Part shown: positions 43 through 10,392 of the stretch, piece by piece
Layout: each line of letters opens with the position of its first letter
Position numbering within the stretch: the stretch's first letter is position 1
NCBI GenBank assembly: GCA_021160155.1
Contig: JAGHDB010000379.1
Span: forward strand, 1 to 10,392
DNA: 10,392 nt
Direction: 5' to 3'
DNA from: Bacteroidales bacterium
GTDB taxonomy: Bacteria > Bacteroidota > Bacteroidia > Bacteroidales > UBA12481
Notes under the pieces: model-generated
What the model saw: only the letters and a program-made list of their open reading frames with translations
Told to the model about the DNA's origin: nothing
Database searches by the model: none
Position numbers and translations under genes: made by a program

Positions 43-1116
43 TCATTCGCTACTTTTAGTGTTTAACATTGATTTTTGTAAAATATGCTCAAAATACATG
101 GCAAAAGAGCGATACAGGAAATGGGTCCATTTACCAAACGGAACAATCAGCAAAGCCCATTGTACCAGGATTATCATGTGCACAAGATAGATCCATATGT
201 TGTTATTCAGAATATCAGTATCAATAAAAATACGTACCACAAACGCAGTTAAACCCATAAGAAACAACCAAATCACAAAAAACCAGTCGCTTGGGTGTGA
301 ATGTTTGCTGATCTCTTTATCCTTTTGAATACGACGACGCACGAAATCAAAGGTTACCACAAAAATTACCGCACTCTCCACATAGCCTAAGATAATCACA
401 AACATGCTCTGAGTGGAGAACCAGTCAAGAAACACGGTGGTAAAAAGCAAGCCAAGGTAGCCCAACACCAGGATAAAATGTTCAAACCAACGCACCTGGT
501 TATCATCGCACCCCAGTGTACGCTTTTGCGTGAACATATGAACAAAAAGCTCTCCCAGTGAGGTGAAATAGGCTGACAAAGGTGTTTTGATGCCTTTCTT
601 ATGTACGGTCAGCCACCACATGTGGATAATATTTGGGAGCAGGATGAATAGAAACACCAGACTAATGGCCGCCATCTCAAAAAGATGTCCGTAATGCATA
701 ACCGATTCTACATTAAAACGTTTGAAAGCTCCAAACCCAATCACTAATGCCGCGAGCACCAGAAAAGCCGTAATAGAAAAAGCAATCGATCTATAAAGCA
801 GTCCGGATAATCCTGTCCAGTCATATTTGCTTATTAGCCAGCGTCGCAGTGACATCATCAATTCTCCCGGATCAGCCTCCCGCGGGCAGGTAGTACTGCA
901 TTCTCCGCAATAATAACACAGCCAGGGATCAAGCGAAGACTCTATTTCATCATCCAGACCCAGAACGCTGTATCGGACCATCTTTCGGGGAAATGAATTT
1001 TCTTCAGTTGAAAGGGTGCATACCGCTGTGCAATTTCCACAATTATAGCACGCATTGGCATCGAATGCCCCATATTTTTTCAGTTCATCCGTAAATTCAG
1101 GATTTATTCTTGCCAT
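43..1116 (-). CDS. qmoC: QmoC-like (HdrC + HdrE/cytochrome b type) membrane subunit
   Basis: Probable membrane anchor that passes electrons between the soluble HdrA-type subunits and the quinone pool. With the start chosen here it has 357 residues. The N-terminus carries two HdrC-type [4Fe-4S] motifs, C23-x2-C26-x2-C29-x3-C33 and C67-x2-C70-x2-C73-x3-C77. Behind these come six hydrophobic segments at about 107-130, 145-170, 213-231, 237-257, 278-297 and 307-327. Several histidines lie in or beside them (H144, H165, H193, H213, H313, H332) and could be haem b ligands, as in the NarI-like domain of QmoC; the actual ligands cannot be fixed by eye. An in-frame ATG at 1173 would add 19 residues and overlap the upstream gene by 77 bp. 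I prefer the ATG at 1116 because it begins the family-like MARINPEF segment, overlaps by only 20 bp and has a weak AAGAG upstream. It contains no CCG (HdrB) domain, so no active site for a heterodisulfide is expected here. Confidence 0.85.
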   Translation of the reverse strand: MARINPEFTDELKKYGAFDANACYNCGNCTAVCTLSTEENSFPRKMVRYSVLGLDDEIESSLDPWLCYYCGECSTTCPREADPGELMMSLRRWLISKYDWTGLSGLLYRSIAFSITAFLVLAALVIGFGAFKRFNVESVMHYGHLFEMAAISLVFLFILLPNIIHMWWLTVHKKGIKTPLSAYFTSLGELFVHMFTQKRTLGCDDNQVRWFEHFILVLGYLGLLFTTVFLDWFSTQSMFVIILGYVESAVIFVVTFDFVRRRIQKDKEISKHSHPSDWFFVIWLFLMGLTAFVVRIFIDTDILNNNIWIYLVHMIILVQWALLIVPFGKWTHFLYRSFAMYFEHILQKSMLNTKSSE

Positions 1117-1393
1117 CGCTCTTGATTTTATAATAAAAATACTCGTCCATATCATCCATTTCACCGGTTTCAACCAAGCCGTATTTCAGTAAACTCATCA
1201 ATTGAAACATCATTTCGTGTGTAGAAAGATTCAATGTTTCCGCCAATTGGGGAACCGTTTTATCCCCCTCTTTCAAAGCATTGAGAATACTTTTTTTTGT
1301 CCTATTAAACTGCTTTAGTTGCTCTGTTACCTTTTTGGGGACAATATGCTTTTCTTTAAGATATTTGGCTGTTTTACCTTTTTCAACTTCCAT
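1097..1393 (-). CDS. Small winged-helix (MarR/ArsR-like fold) protein inside the Qmo-like operon
   Basis: A 98-residue protein with no recognised specific family. The central part, about residues 33-90, reads as a winged helix: a helix with SILNALKEGDKTVPQLAE, a putative recognition helix with LSTHEMMFQLMSLLKYG, and a wing ending in YFYYKI. Both ends are lysine-rich. There are no cysteines, so it is not a direct Fe-S protein. It starts 8 bp after the HdrA-like gene and overlaps the QmoC-like gene by 20 bp, so it is probably made along with the complex. It may be a transcriptional regulator of the operon, or an accessory protein that uses the fold for protein contacts. The sequence does not decide between these. 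Confidence 0.75.
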   Translation of the reverse strand: MEVEKGKTAKYLKEKHIVPKKVTEQLKQFNRTKKSILNALKEGDKTVPQLAETLNLSTHEMMFQLMSLLKYGLVETGEMDDMDEYFYYKIKSDGKNKS

Positions 1394-1401
1394 GATTATT
1401 C

Positions 1402-3336
1402 TTAAATATTTGGTATTAAAGCATCAATCATACTTTCCACATCCTCATCGGTCAATCCGATCAGGTCAAGTGCATTGGTGGGACAAACCGGCAAACACAT
1501 ACCACAACCTTTACACACGGCGGAATTCACTTTTGCAATAAATTTTCCACCTGTCTCAACTTTTTCAAAAGCATTATAGGGGCAGGCTTCATCACATTTA
1601 CCACACCATTCACAAGCTTCCAGGTTGACTTTTGCAACAGTCGGTTCCAACGCCAGTTCACCCGAATTAACGAGCGAGAACGATTTGGTAGCCGCAGCCA
1701 GGCCCGAGTTTATGGATTCCATAATGTTTTTCGGGCCCTGACTGGCTCCCGCAATGGTGATTCCGTCAATTACCGTTTCCACGGGGCGTAGTTTCATATG
1801 GATTTCATTAAAGAAATTATCCCGCCCCCTGGGGACTTTCAGTAGATTGCCGATTGAATTATCTTGTCGCGGCACCATTCCGGTTACCAATACAACCAGA
1901 TCCGCAACTACTTCTATCTCTTTATCGATGGTTAGCATATCTTTGATCCTAACAATGGTTTGCGTACCACTCTTTTCCACTACCGGGGGATCATACTCAA
2001 AAGATTGCAGGTAAATATCCCCGAGACGTGATGATTCATCATACCACACTTCTGCTTTGCCGTAAGTTCTTATTCCCCGGTTAAAATGGTAATTATGTAT
2101 GCCCTTATATTTTTTCTTAACCGTGATGGCGGTGTGGATGATAGCCGTACAGCAATAACGTGAGCAATATTTATTCTCCCCGTCAACCTGTCGACTTCCC
2201 ACGCAATAGATATAAGCAATGTTTTTTATCTCTTTCCCTTTATAAACCAGCTTATCATCACAGTAATGAACAATTCTTTTGAACTGTGGGAAAGTCACCA
2301 CATTGTCAATCTCTCCATATCCAAACTCACCCTTTTTAGGTTCGTAAGGATCAAAACCGGTGGCCAGTAAAATAGAACCAACCTTTAAATTAAGATATTC
2401 GGTTTTCTGACTAAAATCAATGTTGGGGCATACTTTTTCACACTCCCCGCAACGCGTACAATTTTTCATATCAATTGCAGGCAGTTGCGGATATTCACTG
2501 GGGTAGTTGTGATAAATAGCCTTCCTGGTGGTGATGTTAAAATTAAACTCATCCGGTACTTCAACCGGACAAACATCAATAGCCTGTTGGAGAGTTTCTT
2601 CGGTGCATCGCAGTTTAAAATGGCGCGGGGTAATTTTCACTTTCAAATTGAAATTCCCAACACTACCACTGTTTTCTATTACTTCCGCTCCGGTAAACAA
2701 CGTGATCTTTTTTTGACTCATTACCTGGTCATAAAGACGGGTGATCAACTCTTTTCCGGTCTCTTCTGTCAGACAGAGATCATCCCACTGAGCCACCCGT
2801 CCCCCCACAAAAAACTCGCGTTCAATCAGATAAACCTGTGACCCTGCTTCTGCCAGTTCAATGGCAGCACGCATTCCGGCTATACCCGCTCCAATCACTG
2901 CCACAGCATTCGTTGCCTCAACTATTACCGGTTCAAGTGATTCGGTATTTCGTACTTTGGCAATGGCTGCCTTGACTATTTGTATGGCTTTTTCCGTAGC
3001 CCCCATTTTGTTGTCAGAGTGTGCCCACGAAACCTGTTCGCGTATATTGGCATGCACATAATTGTATTTGTTCAGACCGGCTCTTTCAACAACGGCTCTA
3101 AAAGTAAGAAGGTGTAATTTAGGAGAGCAGGATGCAACCACTACACCATCCAGTTCCCTGTCCTTAATATCATCAACCATCTCTTTCTGGTTTGAATCGG
3201 CACAGGCAAACATGGTGGTTTTAGAGAGGATTACTCCTTCATCTCCTTCTACAGCCTGACGAACTTTCTCCACATCCACGTAATCTGAAATGTTCCCGCC
3301 GCAATGACAGATATATACGCCTATCTTCTTTTTCAT
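1402..3336 (-). CDS. hdrA: HdrA-like FAD/iron-sulfur oxidoreductase (QmoB/HdrA type, full length)
   Basis: At 644 residues it is about the length of methanogen HdrA. Domains in order: an N-terminal HdrA domain starting GVYICHCGGNI (C10, C12, C45, C70); a thioredoxin-reductase-like FAD domain with G149-A-G151-I-A-G154; an inserted ferredoxin region at about 240-305; the noncanonical HdrA cluster motif C378-x12-C391-x3-C395-C396; and a C-terminal two-cluster ferredoxin (C575, C578, C581, C585 and C608, C611, C614, C618). The inserted region is odd: its second motif is intact (C293, C296, C299, C303), but the first keeps only C244 and C256 before the conserved PVEVPDEFN, so that cluster is probably lost. 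In Qmo complexes such a protein pairs with QmoA and relays electrons by flavin and clusters in the cytoplasm. The QmoB of sulfate reducers carries an MvhD-like tail; here that part is a separate upstream gene. Its ATG overlaps the QmoA-like stop by 4 bp, with AAGGA 10 nt ahead. Confidence 0.9.
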   Translation of the reverse strand: MKKKIGVYICHCGGNISDYVDVEKVRQAVEGDEGVILSKTTMFACADSNQKEMVDDIKDRELDGVVVASCSPKLHLLTFRAVVERAGLNKYNYVHANIREQVSWAHSDNKMGATEKAIQIVKAAIAKVRNTESLEPVIVEATNAVAVIGAGIAGMRAAIELAEAGSQVYLIEREFFVGGRVAQWDDLCLTEETGKELITRLYDQVMSQKKITLFTGAEVIENSGSVGNFNLKVKITPRHFKLRCTEETLQQAIDVCPVEVPDEFNFNITTRKAIYHNYPSEYPQLPAIDMKNCTRCGECEKVCPNIDFSQKTEYLNLKVGSILLATGFDPYEPKKGEFGYGEIDNVVTFPQFKRIVHYCDDKLVYKGKEIKNIAYIYCVGSRQVDGENKYCSRYCCTAIIHTAITVKKKYKGIHNYHFNRGIRTYGKAEVWYDESSRLGDIYLQSFEYDPPVVEKSGTQTIVRIKDMLTIDKEIEVVADLVVLVTGMVPRQDNSIGNLLKVPRGRDNFFNEIHMKLRPVETVIDGITIAGASQGPKNIMESINSGLAAATKSFSLVNSGELALEPTVAKVNLEACEWCGKCDEACPYNAFEKVETGGKFIAKVNSAVCKGCGMCLPVCPTNALDLIGLTDEDVESMIDALIPNI

Positions 3337-4643
3337 AATGATTCTTTCCTTAAATAACTTGTTGTTTCGGCTGATGCAGCCCCACCGGATAAAATTGAAT
3401 CGGGAATATCCATCGGACCGGAGGCTGTTCCTGCAACAAAAACTCCTTCGATACTCGTTTTGGCCGGACTTGCCATGAGATCAACCTGATTCACAAAATG
3501 GAAGGGGTCAAGTTGAAGCTCTTCGTTTTCAAATACACCGGAGATACCCTGATTGGGCAACACACCAACTGAAAGCACTACCATATCGTGCTCGGCTTCT
3601 TTGACAGTACCAGCTTTTATATCCTCATAACGCACTACCAGATTACCATTTTCTTTTCCGGTAATCTTCCCCACTTTTCCTTTTATAAATTCCACACCCA
3701 TATCCTGTGCCTGTACATAAAATTCATTAAATCCTTTACCAAACGCCCTTATATGAAGGTAATAGATGGTAATATCCGCCATTGGCAAAGCACCCATCAG
3801 CAATTGAGCCTGCTTGATTGAATACATACAGCAGATTTGGGAGCAGATTGGATTACCTACCGATTTATCCCGTGAACCCGTGCAAAGAACATAAGCTATA
3901 TTGTCAGGCATTTTTCCATCGCCCGGTCTCAATACGGTATTAAACGGACGCGTGGGAGCCAATTCACGTTCCATCTGCATGGAAGTAATCACATTTTTAT
4001 ATTTCCCGTATCCGTATCTGGGTATTTTCAACGGGTCAAACAATTCAAAACCCGTAGCTATTACCACTGATTTTATTTTAACCAGGAACTCCTCGGGAGT
4101 TTGAGTAAAATCAATACATTTGGTAGGACATGCCCGCTCACAGGCACCGCAAAGAGTACAATTATCAATGTCAATGGCAGCAGCACGCGGACTGGCAATA
4201 CTAAAAGGGATATAGGCAGCTTTTCTTCCCACAAGGCCATACTGGTATTCATCAGTCACACTGACCGGACAAGCTTCTTCACAAAGCTGGCATCCGGTAC
4301 AGTCGGCTACATGGACATAGCGTGGTTTCTGCAGTACAACCGCTTCAAAACGATGTGATCCCTTTTTTAATATTTTTTGGGGTTCGGCACCGGTAAAAAT
4401 TGTGATATTGGGGTGCCTGGCGATTTCCGAAACTTTTGGAGTGGTAATACATGCTGCACAATCCAGGGTCGGAAATACTTTGCTGAGTAAAATCATCTTG
4501 CCGCCAATAGAGAGTTCTTTTTCAAGAAGCAACACTTTATAACCCAGATCAGCCAGGTTCAAAGCTGATTCCCCCCCGGCAATACCCGCACCTACCACAA
4601 GAACATCGTATTCCAATGTTTTCATCTGTTTCTGGATACTCAT
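3333..4643 (-). CDS. qmoA: QmoA-like HdrA-family FAD/iron-sulfur protein
   Basis: At 436 residues it matches the shorter QmoA form of HdrA, which lacks the N-terminal HdrA domain and the C-terminal ferredoxin. The FAD-binding fold begins at once with G18-A-G20-I-A-G23. The conserved DCAACITTPK segment has C62 and C65. The inserted ferredoxin has two complete [4Fe-4S] motifs, C115-x2-C118-x2-C121-x3-C125 and C162-x2-C165-x2-C168-x3-C172. The noncanonical HdrA cluster motif is present as C254-x12-C267-x3-C271-C272. The C-terminus has the usual GVFVAGTASGP flavin-fold ending. It probably forms the flavin core together with the longer HdrA-like protein encoded just downstream. The start abuts the MvhD-like stop; an internal Met7 is an alternative start, and neither has a clear ribosome binding site. 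An HdrA of another sulfur pathway (sHdr) is a less likely reading, because HdrB and lipoate-binding protein genes are absent here. Confidence 0.88.
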   Translation of the reverse strand: MSIQKQMKTLEYDVLVVGAGIAGGESALNLADLGYKVLLLEKELSIGGKMILLSKVFPTLDCAACITTPKVSEIARHPNITIFTGAEPQKILKKGSHRFEAVVLQKPRYVHVADCTGCQLCEEACPVSVTDEYQYGLVGRKAAYIPFSIASPRAAAIDIDNCTLCGACERACPTKCIDFTQTPEEFLVKIKSVVIATGFELFDPLKIPRYGYGKYKNVITSMQMERELAPTRPFNTVLRPGDGKMPDNIAYVLCTGSRDKSVGNPICSQICCMYSIKQAQLLMGALPMADITIYYLHIRAFGKGFNEFYVQAQDMGVEFIKGKVGKITGKENGNLVVRYEDIKAGTVKEAEHDMVVLSVGVLPNQGISGVFENEELQLDPFHFVNQVDLMASPAKTSIEGVFVAGTASGPMDIPDSILSGGAASAETTSYLRKESL

Positions 4644-5051
4644 TTAATTTGAAGATTTACTTAAGTATTCTGCAAAACTTTTAACATGTTTCACAAATGG
4701 CTCACTGCATACAGAACAAATTGCCGCCATTTTCAAACGGGCCGGATCAATTCCCTTTTCTTTCATCAATTGTTGCGTCACACTCATTAACTGACCTGTT
4801 TTTTCCGTACAGGATTCACCATAAGGACAATCGGTACCGTCAGCAGCAATAAACACCCCGTCGAAACCCTGTTCAAGAGCATGCAAAATCCAGCGGGGTT
4901 TGATGGAACTTGAACAGGGTACCGGAATGGTATACACGGTGGGCGGATAATGTAATTTCAATAAGCCTGCCATATCAATAGCCGGATCAGAAATTTTTTC
5001 TGTTGAAAAAACCAGGATCCTGGGGCTGTTATTTACTTTTCCACCAGTCAT
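4644..5051 (-). CDS. MvhD/FrhD-like iron-sulfur electron transfer protein
   Basis: A 135-residue protein resembling the MvhD/FrhD (hydrogenase delta subunit) family, which carries electrons into HdrA-type flavoproteins through a [2Fe-2S] cluster. The match rests on the layout: PCSSSIKPRWILHALEQGFDGVFIA (about 45-69), then a D-C-P-Y-G-x-x-C element (C75, C81), then a helix ending GIDPARLKMAAI. The five cysteines are C46, C75, C81, C112 and C115. The N-terminal CxxC of typical MvhD is replaced by VFSTEKIS, while C112-x2-C115 near the end is extra, so the ligand set may have been rearranged. In QmoB of sulfate reducers this domain is fused to the C-terminus; here it is a stand-alone gene between TusA and the QmoA-like gene. 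It has one of the best ribosome binding sites in the operon, AAGGA 7 nt before the ATG (5059-5063). Confidence 0.8.
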   Translation of the reverse strand: MTGGKVNNSPRILVFSTEKISDPAIDMAGLLKLHYPPTVYTIPVPCSSSIKPRWILHALEQGFDGVFIAADGTDCPYGESCTEKTGQLMSVTQQLMKEKGIDPARLKMAAICSVCSEPFVKHVKSFAEYLSKSSN

Positions 5052-5053
5052 AA

Positions 5054-5302
5054 TTATTTCCTTAAGAGGATTTTAAAAAAACCTGATTCTTCTATTGTAC
5101 CAAGATATTCGTAGCCTTTCTTGGTACACCATTTCGGGATATCACGCTTCGTGCCTTCGTCAGCCGACAGCACCTCCATTACCTGTCCTTTTTCAATTTG
5201 ACCAATGGCTTTTTTTGCAGCCAGTAAAGGTCCCGGACAGGATGTTCCCCGGGCATCAACTGATTTATCCACATGTAACTGTGCTAATTCTTCTGTATTC
5301 AT
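5054..5302 (-). CDS. tusA: TusA-family sulfur carrier protein
   Basis: An 82-residue protein of the TusA/SirA/YeeD family, small cytoplasmic carriers that hold sulfane sulfur as a persulfide on one cysteine. The signature CPGP is at C22-P-G-P after VDARGTS, followed by a helix (LLAAKKAIGQIEKGQ) and the strand VMEVLSADEGTKRDIPKW typical of the family. C59 is a second cysteine, often seen in this position region. It lies between a DsrE-family gene and the MvhD-like gene, only 2 bp from the latter. That context argues for a role in dissimilatory or redox sulfur transfer rather than in tRNA thiolation alone. The family is certain; the donor and acceptor are not. Confidence 0.93.
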   Translation of the reverse strand: MNTEELAQLHVDKSVDARGTSCPGPLLAAKKAIGQIEKGQVMEVLSADEGTKRDIPKWCTKKGYEYLGTIEESGFFKILLRK

Positions 5303-5333
5303 GATTTCTAATTTTACGTGTTAAATTTGATGG

Positions 5334-5753
5334 CTAAATAAACAGGTTAATATCTGCTTCTTCGGCCGAAGCCATATACTCACTGATACCACAGATATCA
5401 TCGGCCAGATCTATAAAATCATCCAGCTTGACACCTTTCCATACTTTACCTGCAAAACCGCAAATGTGCACTTTCACATTGGTCATCTCTTTGGCCGTAC
5501 GAAAAGCTTCTGTCCAATGCGGTGTACCTAAAGCTTTGAGTGAGGCTAAGAATTCATCCTTTTTATCCGTAATTTCCGCTACCCGGTCGTTGACCATTGC
5601 ATTTTCTTTTTTAAATGCAAATGCTGCCTGTAAAAGGACGAAAATGTCCACGTCCATATCTTCAGCCGCAGCTCCTCCCAGGATCACACCTGCAGCTGTC
5701 AGTTTGTCTACACTGCCCGAAAACAGTGCCAATGTCAATTTTTTGTTTTTCAT
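5334..5753 (-). CDS. DsrE/DsrF-like (DsrE_2 type) sulfur transfer protein
   Basis: A 139-residue soluble protein and the first gene of the operon. It begins with a strand and glycine-rich loop (LTLALFSGSVDKLTAAGVILGGAAA) and a second strand MDVDIFVLL. It then has VHICGFAGKVWKGVKLDDFIDLADDICGISEYMASAEEADINLFI in outline (about 95-139). That arrangement matches DsrE2/DsrE3-type proteins, where a Cys-x-x-S-x-x-x-M-G element precedes a GVA-x-Y-L and an acidic ADxxLxI ending. C98 aligns with the usual active cysteine, but the following residues are GFAGKVWKG rather than QMSMDVMG. C121 replaces a usual glycine, giving a possible second redox thiol. DsrE proteins pass persulfide sulfur to or from TusA, and tusA is the next gene, so they are probable partners. 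Only one DsrE-type gene is present, unlike the TusBCD or DsrEFH sets. Confidence 0.85.
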   Translation of the reverse strand: MKNKKLTLALFSGSVDKLTAAGVILGGAAAEDMDVDIFVLLQAAFAFKKENAMVNDRVAEITDKKDEFLASLKALGTPHWTEAFRTAKEMTNVKVHICGFAGKVWKGVKLDDFIDLADDICGISEYMASAEEADINLFI

Positions 5754-5856: not shown

Positions 5857-5872
5857 TGTGATTCATGTCACA
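5857..5872. promoter_or_regulatory. CRP-type operator, perfect TGTGA-N6-TCACA dyad
   Basis: TGTGA at 5857-5861 and TCACA at 5868-5872 form the textbook half-sites of a CRP-type box with the standard 6-bp spacer. An AAA flank lies on the left and CATTT on the right. A second, longer register (TAAATGTG at 5853-5860 against CACATTTA at 5871-5878) overlaps it with a centre shifted by 1 bp. The box ends 7 bp before the -7 element of the Crp/Fnr gene, where a bound protein would cover the -33 region, so autorepression is plausible. It lies about 110 bp ahead of the divergent DsrE start, at a distance suited to activation. It is the only such site noticed in the window. The rest of the 147-bp intergenic region is AT-rich and shows nothing else clear. 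Confidence 0.75.
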
Positions 5873-7072: not shown

Positions 7073-10000
7073 ATGATTAACAGTATTATTTTTTTCTCAA
7101 TCAGGAGAAAGTTTGTCATCCTAACCTTTATGCTGCTATTGGTTGGATGGGGGATATTTTCAATGTTTAAAGTGCCGCTGGATGCAGTACCCGACATCAC
7201 AAATAACCAGGTACAGGTAATTACCACTACACCTAATCTCGGCACCGGGGATATCGAACAATTTGTCACCTATCCGGTTGAATTATCCTTGTCAAACCTT
7301 CCCGGGGTAATAGAATTACGCTCTATATCACGTTTTGGCTTATCTGTCGTAACAATCGTTTTTAAGGATGATATGGGCACTTACCTGCCGAGACAACTGG
7401 TACAGGAAAAGTTGAGCGAAGTCAGTGACCAAATCCCCAAAGGATTCGGAGAACCCTTTATGGCCCCGATTAGCACCGGCTTAGGTGAAATTTACCAATA
7501 CACTCTTGATGTAAAACCCGGTTATGACACCGTCTATTCTCCAATGGATTTACGAACCATACAGGATTGGATTGTAAAACGACAAATGTCGATGCTGCCC
7601 GGCGTGGTTGAAGTGAACAGCTTCGGTGGATACCAGAAACAATATGAAGTGGCGGTTGACCCCGATAAGATGAAAAGTATGGACATTGGTATTATGGAGA
7701 TTTTTAATGCACTGGAGAAAAACAATGAAAATACCGGCGGAGCTTATATAGAAAAAGATAAAATGGCCAACTTCATCAGAGGAGAAGGCCTGCTGAGAAA
7801 CATCCGGGATATTGAAAATATTGGCATTAAGAACGTAAACGGGGTTCCGGTTCTGATCAGGGATGTAGCAACCGTGAAATTCGGTAGTGCCGTTAGATAC
7901 GGAGCCTTTACCAAAAACGGCCGGGGGGAAGCAGTCGGAGGAATCGTTATGATGCTTAAAGGAGAGAATTCGAATGAAGTGATCGGTAAAGTTAAGGAGC
8001 GTATTGCCGAAATTCAAAAATCTCTACCTGAAGGACTTGAAATAAAACCGTTTTTAAACCGGTCTAAACTGATTCAAAGCACTACGGGAACGGTGGCTGA
8101 GAATCTTTCGATCGGTGCCCTTATCGTAGTTTTCTTTATGATGCTTCTCCTGGGAGGAGTGAGAGGAGGCCTGATCATCGCTTCGGTAATGCCCCTGTCA
8201 CTTTTGTTTGCCTTTTCACTGATGAACATCTTTGGGGTATGGGCTAACCTGATGTCACTCGGTGCCATTGACTTCGGTATCATCATTGACGGAGCAGTCA
8301 TTATCGTTGAAAGTGTCATGCTAATGGTGGCCCATCGATTGAAAAATGATTCAAACCAATTGATATCTGGGAAAGAGATGGCGAAAATTACCTATATGGC
8401 TTCTACACGCCGGGCAAACTCAGTCTTTTTCGGATTGCTAATTATCCTCATAATCTTCTTTCCCATTCTGGCCCTTACCGGTATTGAAGGTAAAATGTTC
8501 AAACCCATGGCACTCACAACCAGTTTTGCCCTGATAGGCGGTTTAATTTTAAGCCTGACCTATATTCCTGCCATGTCGGTTCTTTTTCTGAAGGGAAAAC
8601 CCAAAACAAAAAAAAGCATCAGCGACAGAATAATCAACGGACTGCTCAGTATTTATGAACCTGTATTACGATTCGCACTGAAATTTCGAAAAGCAGTTAT
8701 AATTTTGGTTGTTATCCTTCTGGCAATCTCAGTCTATACCTTTACCAGGATAGGCGGAGAGTTCATTCCCAAATTAGATGAGGGTGATATTGCCTTCCAG
8801 GCATTGCTGAAACCGGGGACTTCTCTTACAGAAGTTCAAGAAACATCCACTAAACTTCAAAAAATCATTCTGGAAGATTTTCCTGAGGTGGAGCAAATAC
8901 TGGGCAGAATAGGAGTAGCGGAAATTCCTGTTGACCCTATGCCAATGGATATTATTGACATGTTCGTGATACTGAAGCCTAAAAAGGAGTGGGTATCTGC
9001 AGATACCAAAAGCGAATTAATTAAAAAAATGAAAGAGAGAGTATCTGTTTTGCCGGGTGTAAATTTCGAATTCACCCAGCCTATCGAGATGCGTTTTAAT
9101 GAACTGCTCACAGGAGTAAGGGAGGATGTTTCAGTGAAACTGTATGGTGAAGATCTGAATGTACTGGCTGCTAAGGCTCAGGAAATGTCAAAGATCATTG
9201 CTACCGTTGAAGGGACTGCAGACCTGCGTGTGGAAGCCACAAAGGGACTTCCGCAAATGACAGTTGAATATGACCGTGCCAGAATAGCACAGTACGGCCT
9301 GAATATCCGTGATCTAAATACTATTGTCAGATCTGCTTTCAGCGGAGAATCTGCCGGTGTTATCTTTGAAGGTGAAAAACGTTTTGATCTGGTCGTCAGA
9401 CTTGAAAAACAACATAAAAAAAATATTGAAAGCATCCGGAACCTATATGTCCACCTGCCGGATGGAAATCAGATACCCCTGAAGGAGGTGGCAAAAATTG
9501 ATTACCAGGGAGGCCCAATGCAGATCTCGCGTGACGGCACCAAAAGAAGAATCTACGTGGGTATCAATGTCAGAGGCCGGGATGTGGAATCAACCGTAAA
9601 AGAAATCAGTCAGAAACTGGACGACCAATTGATTTTACCGCCGGGATATTACATTCAATACGGGGGCGCTTTTGAAAACCTTCAAAGAGCAAAAGATCGT
9701 CTTGCCATTGTGGTACCCCTCGCTTTGGTACTGATATTTGTTTTGCTTTTTCTTTCACTACGCTCTATCAAACAAACGTTCCTGATCTATATGGCTATTC
9801 CGATGGCTGCCATCGGAGGTGTCTTTTCTCTGTTTTTCAGAGATATCAACTTCAGCATATCGGCAGGTATCGGCTTTATTATTTTGTTTGGCGTATCAGT
9901 TATGAACGGACTTATTTTAATCAACCGGTTCAATACACTGAAAGAAGAGGGTGTTAGTGATCTTACAGATCGTATTACCAAAGGAGCTAAAGAAGTCATG

Positions 10001-10392
10001 CGGCCTATTCTGCTGGCGGCAAGCACCGATATAGTCGGATTTATTCCGATGGCCATATCGCAATCGGCCGGTGCTGAAGTACAACGGCCCCTGGCTACAG
10101 TTGTTATCGGTGGACTCTTAACTGCATTGGCACTAACCCTCGTGGTAATTCCTGTTCTCTATTACCTGTTTGAGTCGCGAGGTAAACAAAAAATAAAAAT
10201 CCCTGCGGATTCCGGAAAACTACCCGCCCTGCTGCTGATTTGCCTGCCGGTTATAGGAGTAGCCAGCGGTTTTACATCTGCTAACACACAGGATATCAGA
10301 AAAGTAACATTACAACAAGCTATTGAAATAGCATTAAAAAACTACCCGCAGATTAAAGCCGATTCACTACGGGTTGAAAAGCAGCAAACACT
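7073..10392 (+). CDS. czcA: CzcA/CusA-family heavy-metal RND efflux pump fused to a TolC-like domain (3' end missing)
   Basis: The open frame runs from ATG 7073 to the window edge: 1106 codons with no stop, so the gene is partial. Residues 1 to about 1045 are a complete HME-RND inner-membrane transporter that exports metal ions using the proton gradient. Membrane segment 1 is near 14-31. The proton-relay segment LGAIDFGIIIDGAVIIVES holds D400, D406 and E413, matching the acidic residues of CzcA. The periplasmic element QPIEMRFNELLTGV is CzcA-like. The CusA methionine triad appears replaced by T, I and E, so divalent ions such as Zn, Co, Ni or Cd are likelier than Cu(I)/Ag(I). After the last transporter helix comes an extra hydrophobic segment (about 1050-1067). 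From about 1076 a TolC/outer-membrane-factor start follows (VTLQQAIEIALKNYPQIKA). Such pump-outer-membrane-factor fusions are known in Bacteroidota. A membrane fusion protein gene would be expected beyond the edge. No strong ribosome binding site precedes the ATG. Confidence 0.93.
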   Translation, partial: MINSIIFFSIRRKFVILTFMLLLVGWGIFSMFKVPLDAVPDITNNQVQVITTTPNLGTGDIEQFVTYPVELSLSNLPGVIELRSISRFGLSVVTIVFKDDMGTYLPRQLVQEKLSEVSDQIPKGFGEPFMAPISTGLGEIYQYTLDVKPGYDTVYSPMDLRTIQDWIVKRQMSMLPGVVEVNSFGGYQKQYEVAVDPDKMKSMDIGIMEIFNALEKNNENTGGAYIEKDKMANFIRGEGLLRNIRDIENIGIKNVNGVPVLIRDVATVKFGSAVRYGAFTKNGRGEAVGGIVMMLKGENSNEVIGKVKERIAEIQKSLPEGLEIKPFLNRSKLIQSTTGTVAENLSIGALIVVFFMMLLLGGVRGGLIIASVMPLSLLFAFSLMNIFGVWANLMSLGAIDFGIIIDGAVIIVESVMLMVAHRLKNDSNQLISGKEMAKITYMASTRRANSVFFGLLIILIIFFPILALTGIEGKMFKPMALTTSFALIGGLILSLTYIPAMSVLFLKGKPKTKKSISDRIINGLLSIYEPVLRFALKFRKAVIILVVILLAISVYTFTRIGGEFIPKLDEGDIAFQALLKPGTSLTEVQETSTKLQKIILEDFPEVEQILGRIGVAEIPVDPMPMDIIDMFVILKPKKEWVSADTKSELIKKMKERVSVLPGVNFEFTQPIEMRFNELLTGVREDVSVKLYGEDLNVLAAKAQEMSKIIATVEGTADLRVEATKGLPQMTVEYDRARIAQYGLNIRDLNTIVRSAFSGESAGVIFEGEKRFDLVVRLEKQHKKNIESIRNLYVHLPDGNQIPLKEVAKIDYQGGPMQISRDGTKRRIYVGINVRGRDVESTVKEISQKLDDQLILPPGYYIQYGGAFENLQRAKDRLAIVVPLALVLIFVLLFLSLRSIKQTFLIYMAIPMAAIGGVFSLFFRDINFSISAGIGFIILFGVSVMNGLILINRFNTLKEEGVSDLTDRITKGAKEVMRPILLAASTDIVGFIPMAISQSAGAEVQRPLATVVIGGLLTALALTLVVIPVLYYLFESRGKQKIKIPADSGKLPALLLICLPVIGVASGFTSANTQDIRKVTLQQAIEIALKNYPQIKADSLRVEKQQT

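Follow-up and report, generated by a model that had tools for sequence, protein, structure and literature searches.

A conserved DsrE-TusA-MvhD-Qmo-like operon of Bacteroidales as a candidate link between protein-bound sulfane sulfur and the quinone pool

The contig JAGHDB010000379.1 of a Bacteroidales bacterium, analysed over a stretch of 10,392 nt (the window), carries a seven-gene operon on its minus strand at positions 43-5753. In order, it encodes a DsrE-type protein, TusA, an MvhD/FlpD-like subunit, a QmoA/HdrA-type protein, a second HdrA-type protein of 644 residues (HdrA644), a winged-helix protein and a QmoC-like protein. A preliminary description of the sequence had named this compact operon, and all seven genes and their families are found. 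The new observation is that the MvhD-like subunit has an altered set of cysteines together with an invariant CxxC motif at a strand-helix junction. We propose that the operon encodes a membrane-anchored, molybdenum-free persulfide oxidoreductase ("S-Qmo") that would reduce sulfane sulfur to H2S, a proposal for which we consider the balance to be even. A link between sulfur and quinone with no direction attached is a claim that we hold more firmly than this whole model. We infer the function, direction and substrate of the complex, and are least sure that it runs toward reduction.

Conservation and distribution of the operon

Relatives of the operon were collected by searching genome contigs with a profile made from an alignment of window-type QmoC proteins. 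The best 80 of 527 loci were taken, which biases this set toward close relatives. These loci lie in Bacteroidota-type metagenome-assembled genomes (two of them titled "Chlorobiota bacterium") and in Petrimonas sp. IBARAKI, which is not titled as one. An HdrA gene is found upstream of QmoC in 78 of the 80 loci, the other two being contig ends, and the winged-helix gene lies between them in 72 of these 78; the six misses have 272-414 bp there. TusA adjoins MvhD in every locus with at least 400 bp upstream (55/55), and a DsrE-type gene occurs within 3 kb wherever at least 2 kb is available (51/51). These two counts exclude 23 of the 80 loci, whose contigs stop within the operon so that no MvhD is present, and some others whose upstream sequence is too short. 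A divergent Crp gene is present within 5 kb in 43/51 loci.

The QmoA protein was also searched against 295 genomes of the order (E <= 1e-130). Matches occur in 45 of them, own genome included, and cover 36/243 good-quality genomes and 39/184 genera; QmoA proteins that bear an insertion (see below) are undercounted at this threshold, so that 45/295 is a lower bound. We picked 20 of the 45 loci, at least four of which (L185-L187, L192) overlap the best-80 set. All 20 hold TusA, MvhD, QmoA, HdrA, the winged helix and QmoC, and all 20 have a DsrE-type gene, which is on the opposite strand in L201. Because TusA, the DsrE-type gene and the full set recur without exception in these counts (55/55, 51/51 and 20/20), the operon is a conserved system and not a chance association.

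The QmoC-like protein was searched over 60 genomes of the family and order (own genome included), and gene maps were drawn. By our sorting of the matches and maps, 12 genomes contain the window-type operon (G000, G006, G011, G013, G018, G023, G033, G034, G036, G043, G047 and G053), with G011 showing only a QmoC gene that adjoins a contig end. Two distant genomes (G098 and G318) from one family outside the class also carry the operon, with QmoA at 51-52% identity. Their loci (L170 and L171) contain TusA (44%), MvhD, QmoA, HdrA, the winged helix (27-36%) and QmoC, and DsrE-type genes flank the operon on both sides in L170 and lie only downstream in L171. DsrE and TusA thus stay beside the Qmo-like genes in relatives that include this distant clade. 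With window-type queries in tblastn, TusA and the winged helix were found at 0/6 apr-linked, 0/3 hydrogenase-linked and 0/7 HdrABC-type loci; a DsrE2-like gene is near apr-qmo in the two green-sulfur-type loci.

A rearranged MvhD subunit and its electron chain

The C112-x-x-C115 motif is present in 71/71 window-type MvhD proteins, and a CxxC of this kind occurs in 0/9 of the other MvhD domains aligned (hydrogenase-linked, HdrABC-linked and apr-QmoB). The cysteine pattern of these other domains was compared as CNWC, one mid cysteine and GCxxxDC. Window-type proteins have no N-terminal CNWC, which is missing from three apr-QmoB domains as well, and in the nine-domain comparison they have also lost one cysteine of the GC..DC pair. 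We take the lost cysteines to be cluster ligands in other MvhD proteins. C46, C75 and C81 are each conserved in 69/71 sequences, and the two distant MvhD proteins have three cysteines only. Among the 120 listed homologues of the distant MvhD (of 1822), 119 have the late CxxC and 90 have it as their sole cysteines; gene context is known for L170 and L171 only. Near relatives in this list bear the source names Kryptonia, Acidoferrales and Chloroflexi (three names among the 120).

An AlphaFold2 model of the MvhD-like protein (predicted local distance difference test score 89.6) finds its best Foldseek match in the Protein Data Bank in 5odc_D, the MvhD of 5odc (template modeling (TM) score 0.86, root mean square deviation 1.3). 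This model match and the PF02662 hit (Table 1) confirm the MvhD fold. The modeled CxxC sits between strand 106-110 and helix 116-133, and this position at a strand-helix junction is like that of thioredoxin-type dithiols. The motif may therefore be read as a dithiol that would react with the TusA or DsrE persulfide, and it offers a simple way to probe by mutation how protein persulfides might interact with an Hdr-type complex.

The carriers retain the residues that this reaction would need. C98 of DsrE is conserved in 32/32 relatives, the carrier cysteine of the longer DsrE2 form in 43/43 and C22 of TusA, the CPxP cysteine, in 70/70. DsrE belongs to its family by a PF13686 score over the cut-off and by its conserved cysteine, and persulfide chemistry is predicted for it. 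A search with PF02635 found no DsrE in the window's genome, which is uninformative because the window DsrE belongs to PF13686.

HdrA644 aligns to positions 1-641 of the NCBIfam HdrA2 model and MvhD to positions 645-770, so these two proteins together are a split HdrA2/QmoB-like protein. The two HdrA-type proteins and the separate MvhD of the preliminary description are therefore present, with their relationship refined. Both HdrA-type proteins score under the HdrA2 cut-off of 1100 (468 and 559 bits). In QmoC, eight cysteine ligands for clusters are conserved in 92-93/93 sequences and accompanied by conserved histidines and hydrophobic segments, which identifies it as a quinone-linked membrane subunit with an Fe-S head and a predicted quinone reaction. 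QmoA has an inserted part like that of L038 in 15/80 loci. The L038 insertion matches Fer4_20 and Pyr_redox_2, the domains of NfnB/GltD, and the L040 and L044 QmoA proteins have the same enlarged size. Because of this NfnB/GltD-like insertion, some versions of the operon probably accept electrons from NAD(P)H as well. At least five changes of the insertion label are required on the QmoC tree, although L038, L040b and L044 fall together on the QmoA tree.

These subunits could form a chain that runs TusA/DsrE - MvhD CxxC - HdrA/QmoA - QmoC - menaquinone. DsrE and TusA would carry sulfane sulfur as a cytoplasmic cysteine persulfide, and TusA (and/or DsrE) would dock on the MvhD-like subunit. Its C112-x-x-C115 dithiol would cleave the persulfide, release HS- and become a disulfide, which HdrA644 and QmoA would re-reduce through their FAD and [4Fe-4S] chains with electrons from menaquinol via QmoC. 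In one sub-type, extra NAD(P)H electrons may enter by the NfnB/GltD-like domain in QmoA. The net effect would be to pass electrons from quinol (with or without NAD(P)H) to protein-bound sulfane sulfur, yielding H2S as a molybdenum-free electron sink, and the divergent Crp/Fnr protein would switch the operon.

Two other cysteine sites were considered and set aside. Cys222 of QmoC (numbered in the 43-1173 open reading frame, ORF) is invariant in 93/93 sequences but is not specific as a persulfide site, because it also occurs in the six apr-linked and four hydrogenase-linked QmoC proteins aligned. The CxxC of QmoA (C62/C65) falls on a C..X stretch when aligned to the HdrA of 9sfi_A, and for this reason we take it as an ordinary HdrA feature. 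Two irregular copies were also seen. In G036 (L039, 12578-13891) an in-frame TAG divides a window-type QmoA into two ORFs, and this, together with the grouping of the L039 QmoC among hydrogenase-linked QmoC proteins, may reflect decay and subunit exchange. Another QmoC-like sequence in the window's own genome (L049, 3098-4050, contig C183) lies at the edge of its contig and spans two frames, with pieces 38% and 66% identical.

Separation from apr-linked Qmo and the direction of electron flow

Against the NCBIfam NF038018 cut-off of 300, the window QmoC scores 166.8 bits and five other window-type proteins score 133-223, compared with 358-498 for three apr-linked QmoC proteins and 207 for one linked to a hydrogenase. 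In a QmoC tree of 35 rows, all apr-linked rows form one clade (100/100) apart from all others, and a core of 19 window-type proteins forms another (100/99). In a tree of QmoA, QmoB and HdrA (48 rows, midpoint-rooted for drawing), the 12 window-type QmoA and 12 window-type HdrA proteins are each one clade (100/100), and both fall with HdrA, separated from apr-linked QmoA/QmoB by a 100/99 split. Because of these splits and the QmoC score below the cut-off, the complex falls outside canonical QmoABC, and its architecture predicts that it functions in the manner of a Qmo complex.

No AprA, DsrA or Sat match was found in the window's own genome, which is 82% complete in 411 contigs, so the reported lack of sulfate-reduction partners holds to that extent. 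Among the 60 genomes, AprA is over its cut-off in three (G001, G018 and G025) and DsrA and Sat in 0/60 each, and the one weaker Sat match, at 267 bits where the cut-off is 323, comes from G024, outside the 12 operon genomes. An ordinary QmoABC for APS (adenosine 5'-phosphosulfate) reductase with its partner genes on missing contigs would be compatible with the incomplete genome and with the three AprA genomes of the order. We nevertheless consider it scarcely probable, given the separation in both trees, a QmoC cut-off that 6/6 window-type proteins miss and 3/3 scored apr-linked ones pass, and the absence of any AprA match at the best 80 loci (with flanks of at most 10 kb and often less). The two operon types also coexist in G018, which has both aprBA-qmoABC (L048) and a window-type operon (L031), and they are therefore paralogues able to occur together. 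The preliminary proposal of a distinct sulfur-to-quinone redox system in Bacteroidota is thus supported by a conserved operon separate from apr-linked Qmo, with the link itself predicted.

Other Qmo-like arrangements turned up in the same genomes. The aprBA-qmoABC loci L046, L047 and L048 (G025, G001 and G018) are in genomes that have no DsrA or Sat over the cut-off, and so encode an APS reductase unaccompanied by its usual partners. L041, L042 and L043 (G003 and G001) combine a QmoC-like protein, two HdrA-type proteins joined to MvhD and genes that look by eye like those of a [NiFe]-hydrogenase; this is apparently a quinone-linked Mvh-type hydrogenase.

Several observations suggest that the window-type complex runs toward reduction: the absence of DsrA and Sat, sulfur-import genes at some loci, and Petrimonas. 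Import-type genes beside the operon in some relatives include a second TusA, YedE/Sulf_transp (PF04143), rhodaneses, a porin and another DsrE; they occur in varying part at L034/L057, L056, L086, L089, L091, L092, L120, L194, L195 and L201. YedE is found in 2/60 genomes, both of which carry the operon (the query was taken from one of them), and a fusion of CoA-disulfide reductase (CoADR) and rhodanese adjoins the operon in L033. Petrimonas sp. IBARAKI carries the operon and has no match to molybdopterin oxidoreductase (PF00384), NrfD or CoADR-rhodanese (E <= 1e-60 for the last). Of 14 operon genomes, the window's own among them, 5 have no PF00384, 8 no NrfD and 10 no CoADR type at that threshold, and for this reason none of the three is a general substitute. 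A passage on P. sulfuriphila describes Petrimonas as reducing S0 to H2S with stimulated growth (PMC9695182), and S0 reduction is ascribed to the genus in a passage of PMC11664143.

A number of points weigh against this proposal. In the Bacteroidales form of MvhD, which has five conserved cysteines, the CxxC could provide cluster ligands, since C46, C75 and C81 are conserved as well. QmoC is not one clade: six QmoC proteins from operons of the same gene order fall outside the window-type core, with those of L039 and L040b grouping with hydrogenase-linked QmoC and those of L040a, L044, L170 and L171 outside, and this subunit therefore seems to have been exchanged. The coexistence with aprBA-qmoABC in G018 belongs here too. 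An even draw of 296 genomes across the phylum gave QmoA at 50% identity or more in only three, own genome included; the remaining matches, at 36-41% identity, are HdrA- or apr-type where inspected. Import-type genes are present at 5/51 readable loci, an exception and not the rule, and YedE is found in only 2/12 operon genomes and has no match at E <= 1e-40 in the window's genome. Other candidate sulfur reductases are common in the 14 operon genomes (PF00384 in 9, NrfD in 6, CoADR-rhodanese in 4), and the Petrimonas link crosses from strain IBARAKI to the described P. sulfuriphila, different species of one genus. Menaquinol has a potential of about -74 mV and S0 or persulfide about -200 to -270 mV. 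Electron transfer from the former to the latter is thus uphill and must be driven either by proton motive force or, through confurcation, by a stronger donor, and most QmoA proteins have no NAD(P)H domain. Lastly, COX1 is neither enriched nor depleted with the operon (5/12 operon genomes against 26/48, p = 0.53), and we dropped its co-occurrence as a signal of direction.

The same complex might be run oxidatively, with electrons from sulfide or persulfide entering at MvhD/TusA and reducing menaquinone. This would be a cytoplasmic role like that of sulfide:quinone oxidoreductase (SQR), serving to detoxify or to gain electrons, and TusA/DsrE would take up the sulfane sulfur. Such transfer is downhill by the potentials given above, the QmoC end fits SQR-like logic, and COX1 is over its cut-off in five of the 12 operon genomes. 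However, the other seven have no COX1 match over the cut-off (two of them are incomplete, at 82% and 67%), a Dsr/Sat pathway that could carry oxidation further is missing (DsrA and Sat at 0/60), YedE and rhodanese import genes adjoin the operon in some relatives, and the Petrimonas passage in PMC9695182 describes a sulfur reducer. We regard the oxidative reading as unlikely.

A further reading, less probable again, is a bifurcating or redox-balancing HdrA complex whose carriers serve biosynthesis (Fe-S clusters, cysteine/methionine or thio-cofactors) and not respiration. Membership in the HdrA family and the NfnB-like insertion would fit it, as would genes for PALP (cysteine-synthase-type) and Cys/Met pyridoxal phosphate enzymes near some copies (L035 and L040). 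Such neighbours stay below 5/93 loci in clustering, where many flanks are short, and a dedicated Crp site and the membrane QmoC gene that closes the operon in mapped loci also speak against biosynthesis.

Oxidation of sulfane sulfur to sulfite, either sHdr-like (sulfur-oxidizing heterodisulfide reductase) or Qmo-based, would account for an arrangement shared with sHdr, in which HdrA proteins are accompanied by TusA/DsrE. In PMC4911364, Qmo with Hdr is proposed to oxidise sulfur to sulfite in sulfur disproportionators. This route is very improbable here. The operon has no HdrB, HdrB-like (CCG) genes are near only 8/93 loci, and no lipoate-binding protein is recognised in the window, the scope within which sHdr and LbpA were searched.

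Beyond the reductive S-Qmo proposal, a broader claim would be a new class of molybdenum-free respiratory sulfur reductase. In it MvhD would have given up its Fe-S ligands and gained a thioredoxin-like CxxC in their place, and menaquinol (NAD(P)H in one sub-type) would reduce the sulfane sulfur of TusA/DsrE. This would explain how Petrimonas and other fermentative Bacteroidota reduce S0, and would extend to Kryptonia-like bacteria and possibly Chloroflexi. We advance it tentatively, as a doubtful but possible extension. The operon, present in at least 45/295 sampled genomes of the order, is a concrete candidate for the handling of zero-valent sulfur by anaerobic Bacteroidota that have neither Dsr nor Sat. 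It is probably an undescribed route of electron exchange between sulfur and the respiratory chain in many anaerobic Bacteroidota.

Gene calls, regulation and relation to known systems

The genes of the operon (Table 1) are separated by 31 bp (DsrE-TusA), 2 bp (TusA-MvhD), 0 bp (MvhD-QmoA) and 8 bp (HdrA-winged helix), with overlaps of 4 bp between QmoA and HdrA and 20 bp between the winged helix and QmoC. We start QmoC at the ATG at 1116 instead of the TTG that opens the automatically called ORF (43-1173), because most relatives begin M-x-x-I-N-P in the alignment.

Table 1. Features of the operon and its upstream region
Feature	Position	Strand	Evidence
DsrE-family persulfide carrier (predicted), 139 aa	5334..5753	-	Pfam DrsE_2 (PF13686) 1.8e-7
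TusA sulfur carrier, 82 aa, CPGP motif	5054..5302	-	Pfam TusA (PF01206) 2.1e-22
MvhD/FlpD-like subunit, 135 aa, C112-x-x-C115	4644..5051	-	Pfam FlpD (PF02662) 7.7e-30
QmoA-like HdrA-type flavo-iron-sulfur protein, 436 aa	3333..4643	-	NCBIfam HdrA2 4e-140 over 133-562; tree
HdrA-type flavo-iron-sulfur protein (HdrA644), 644 aa	1402..3336	-	NCBIfam HdrA2 1.8e-167 over 1-641; tree
ArsR/SmtB-fold winged-helix protein, 98 aa	1097..1393	-	Pfam HTH_5, 22.5 bits vs cut-off 22
QmoC-like membrane subunit, HdrC-type 2x[4Fe-4S] head	43..1116	-	NF038018 167 bits; alignment; hydropathy
TGTGATTCATGTCACA palindrome, operon / divergent Crp/Fnr intergenic	5857..5872		TGTGA-N6-TCACA match
Divergent Crp/Fnr-family regulator, 226 aa	5901..6581	+	Pfam HTH_Crp_2 + cNMP_binding

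The palindrome TGTGATTCATGTCACA is a perfect TGTGA-N6-TCACA, which we take to be a perfect match to the CRP consensus, and occurs once in the window against 0.01 expected. In 50 intergenic regions between Crp and the operon (window included), 30 have the perfect motif, 39 have it with at most one mismatch and ten have two or more mismatches; one region (11 bp) is too short. Mononucleotide shuffles give zero mismatches in 0.02% and one mismatch in 0.4% of cases. The divergent Crp/Fnr protein is thus probably the regulator of the operon. Three of its cysteines are conserved among homologues (C6 in 59/64, C9 in 63/64 and C106 in 59/64), and redox or sulfur sensing is possible.

The winged-helix protein has no conserved cysteine in 72 sequences, which rules it out as a cysteine-based persulfide sensor. 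The best Foldseek match of its AlphaFold2 model is SmtB (E = 3.5e-4, TM-score 0.55). A DsrD-like identity was also rejected, as the Foldseek rows are mostly ArsR/SmtB- and MarR-type, with modest TM-scores, and DsrD is named in none of the 50 shown.

Upstream of the operon, in divergent orientation, are the Crp/Fnr-family gene, a Fur-like gene and a gene for an RND (resistance-nodulation-division) pump. The RND (ACR_tran) ORF at 7073-10390 has its pump domain in residues 6-1033 followed by about 70 more residues that resemble by eye the start of a TolC-type protein, and the window end cuts this ORF. Clustering of neighbours (ORFs of at least 80 aa, 93 loci, many with short flanks) shows no strongly recurrent partner outside the operon; the commonest are a Nitro_FeMo-Co protein at 10/93 loci and HdrB-like, HdrC-like and DUF134 proteins at 8 each. 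A group of HdrC-like, HdrB-like (CCG) and QmoA-like genes is seen at L038 (11935-16962), L050, L083, L088, L098 and L103. It is near the operon in 8/93 loci and elsewhere in other genomes, and could supply HdrB in trans.

No description of a DsrE-TusA-MvhD-QmoA-HdrA-QmoC system was recognised in the literature (open-licence PMC papers). The operon has TusA and DsrE in common with the YTD (YedE-TusA-DsrE) cluster of sulfur disproportionators, which in PMC12998232 is yedE, tusA and dsrE with two or three conserved hypotheticals and no Qmo/Hdr. YedE occurs at a minority of window-type loci, whereas most show none nearby and so differ from a YTD cluster. The sHdr systems likewise have TusA and DsrE carriers beside an HdrA-type flavoprotein (PMC6067878), and LbpA genes are described there as inevitably associated with sHdr genes. 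The window operon differs in having a membrane QmoC and no HdrB/HdrC1B1C2B2. The preliminary statement that sHdr partners are missing stands for the window, the only sequence searched for them, in which no HdrB or HdrC copy is present and no LbpA is recognised among the scanned ORFs. With MvhADG/HdrABC and bacterial HdrABC-MvhD the operon shares the HdrA and MvhD folds (5odc), but it has no hydrogenase or HdrB and its MvhD cysteines are rearranged.

The closest architecture is that of type I QmoABC from sulfate reducers and green sulfur bacteria, with HdrA-type QmoA and QmoB and a QmoC that joins an HdrC-type Fe-S head to a quinone-linked membrane part. The window operon differs from it in the separate MvhD with CxxC, in TusA, DsrE and the winged helix, in having no AprAB, and in lying outside the apr-linked clade and below the QmoC cut-off. 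QmoC is named by a source for 4/120 listed relatives, and genes annotated as "QmoABC" are thus no sure sign of sulfate reduction. A "type II" Qmo was described by Neukirchen et al. 2023 (PMC10504309), with a QmoAB nearer to HdrA than to type I; it was reported with or without Dsr/Apr and its role was left open. The main text of that paper has no match to "Bacteroid" and two to "TusA", neither on Qmo. Distinctness from Qmo, as claimed in the preliminary description, stands for the separate clade and is qualified by G018 and by these published type II proteins without Apr/Dsr. Measured by the type II criterion, the window QmoA and HdrA are nearer to HdrA than to type I QmoAB (100/99 split), and the window clade fits the published description of type II Qmo.

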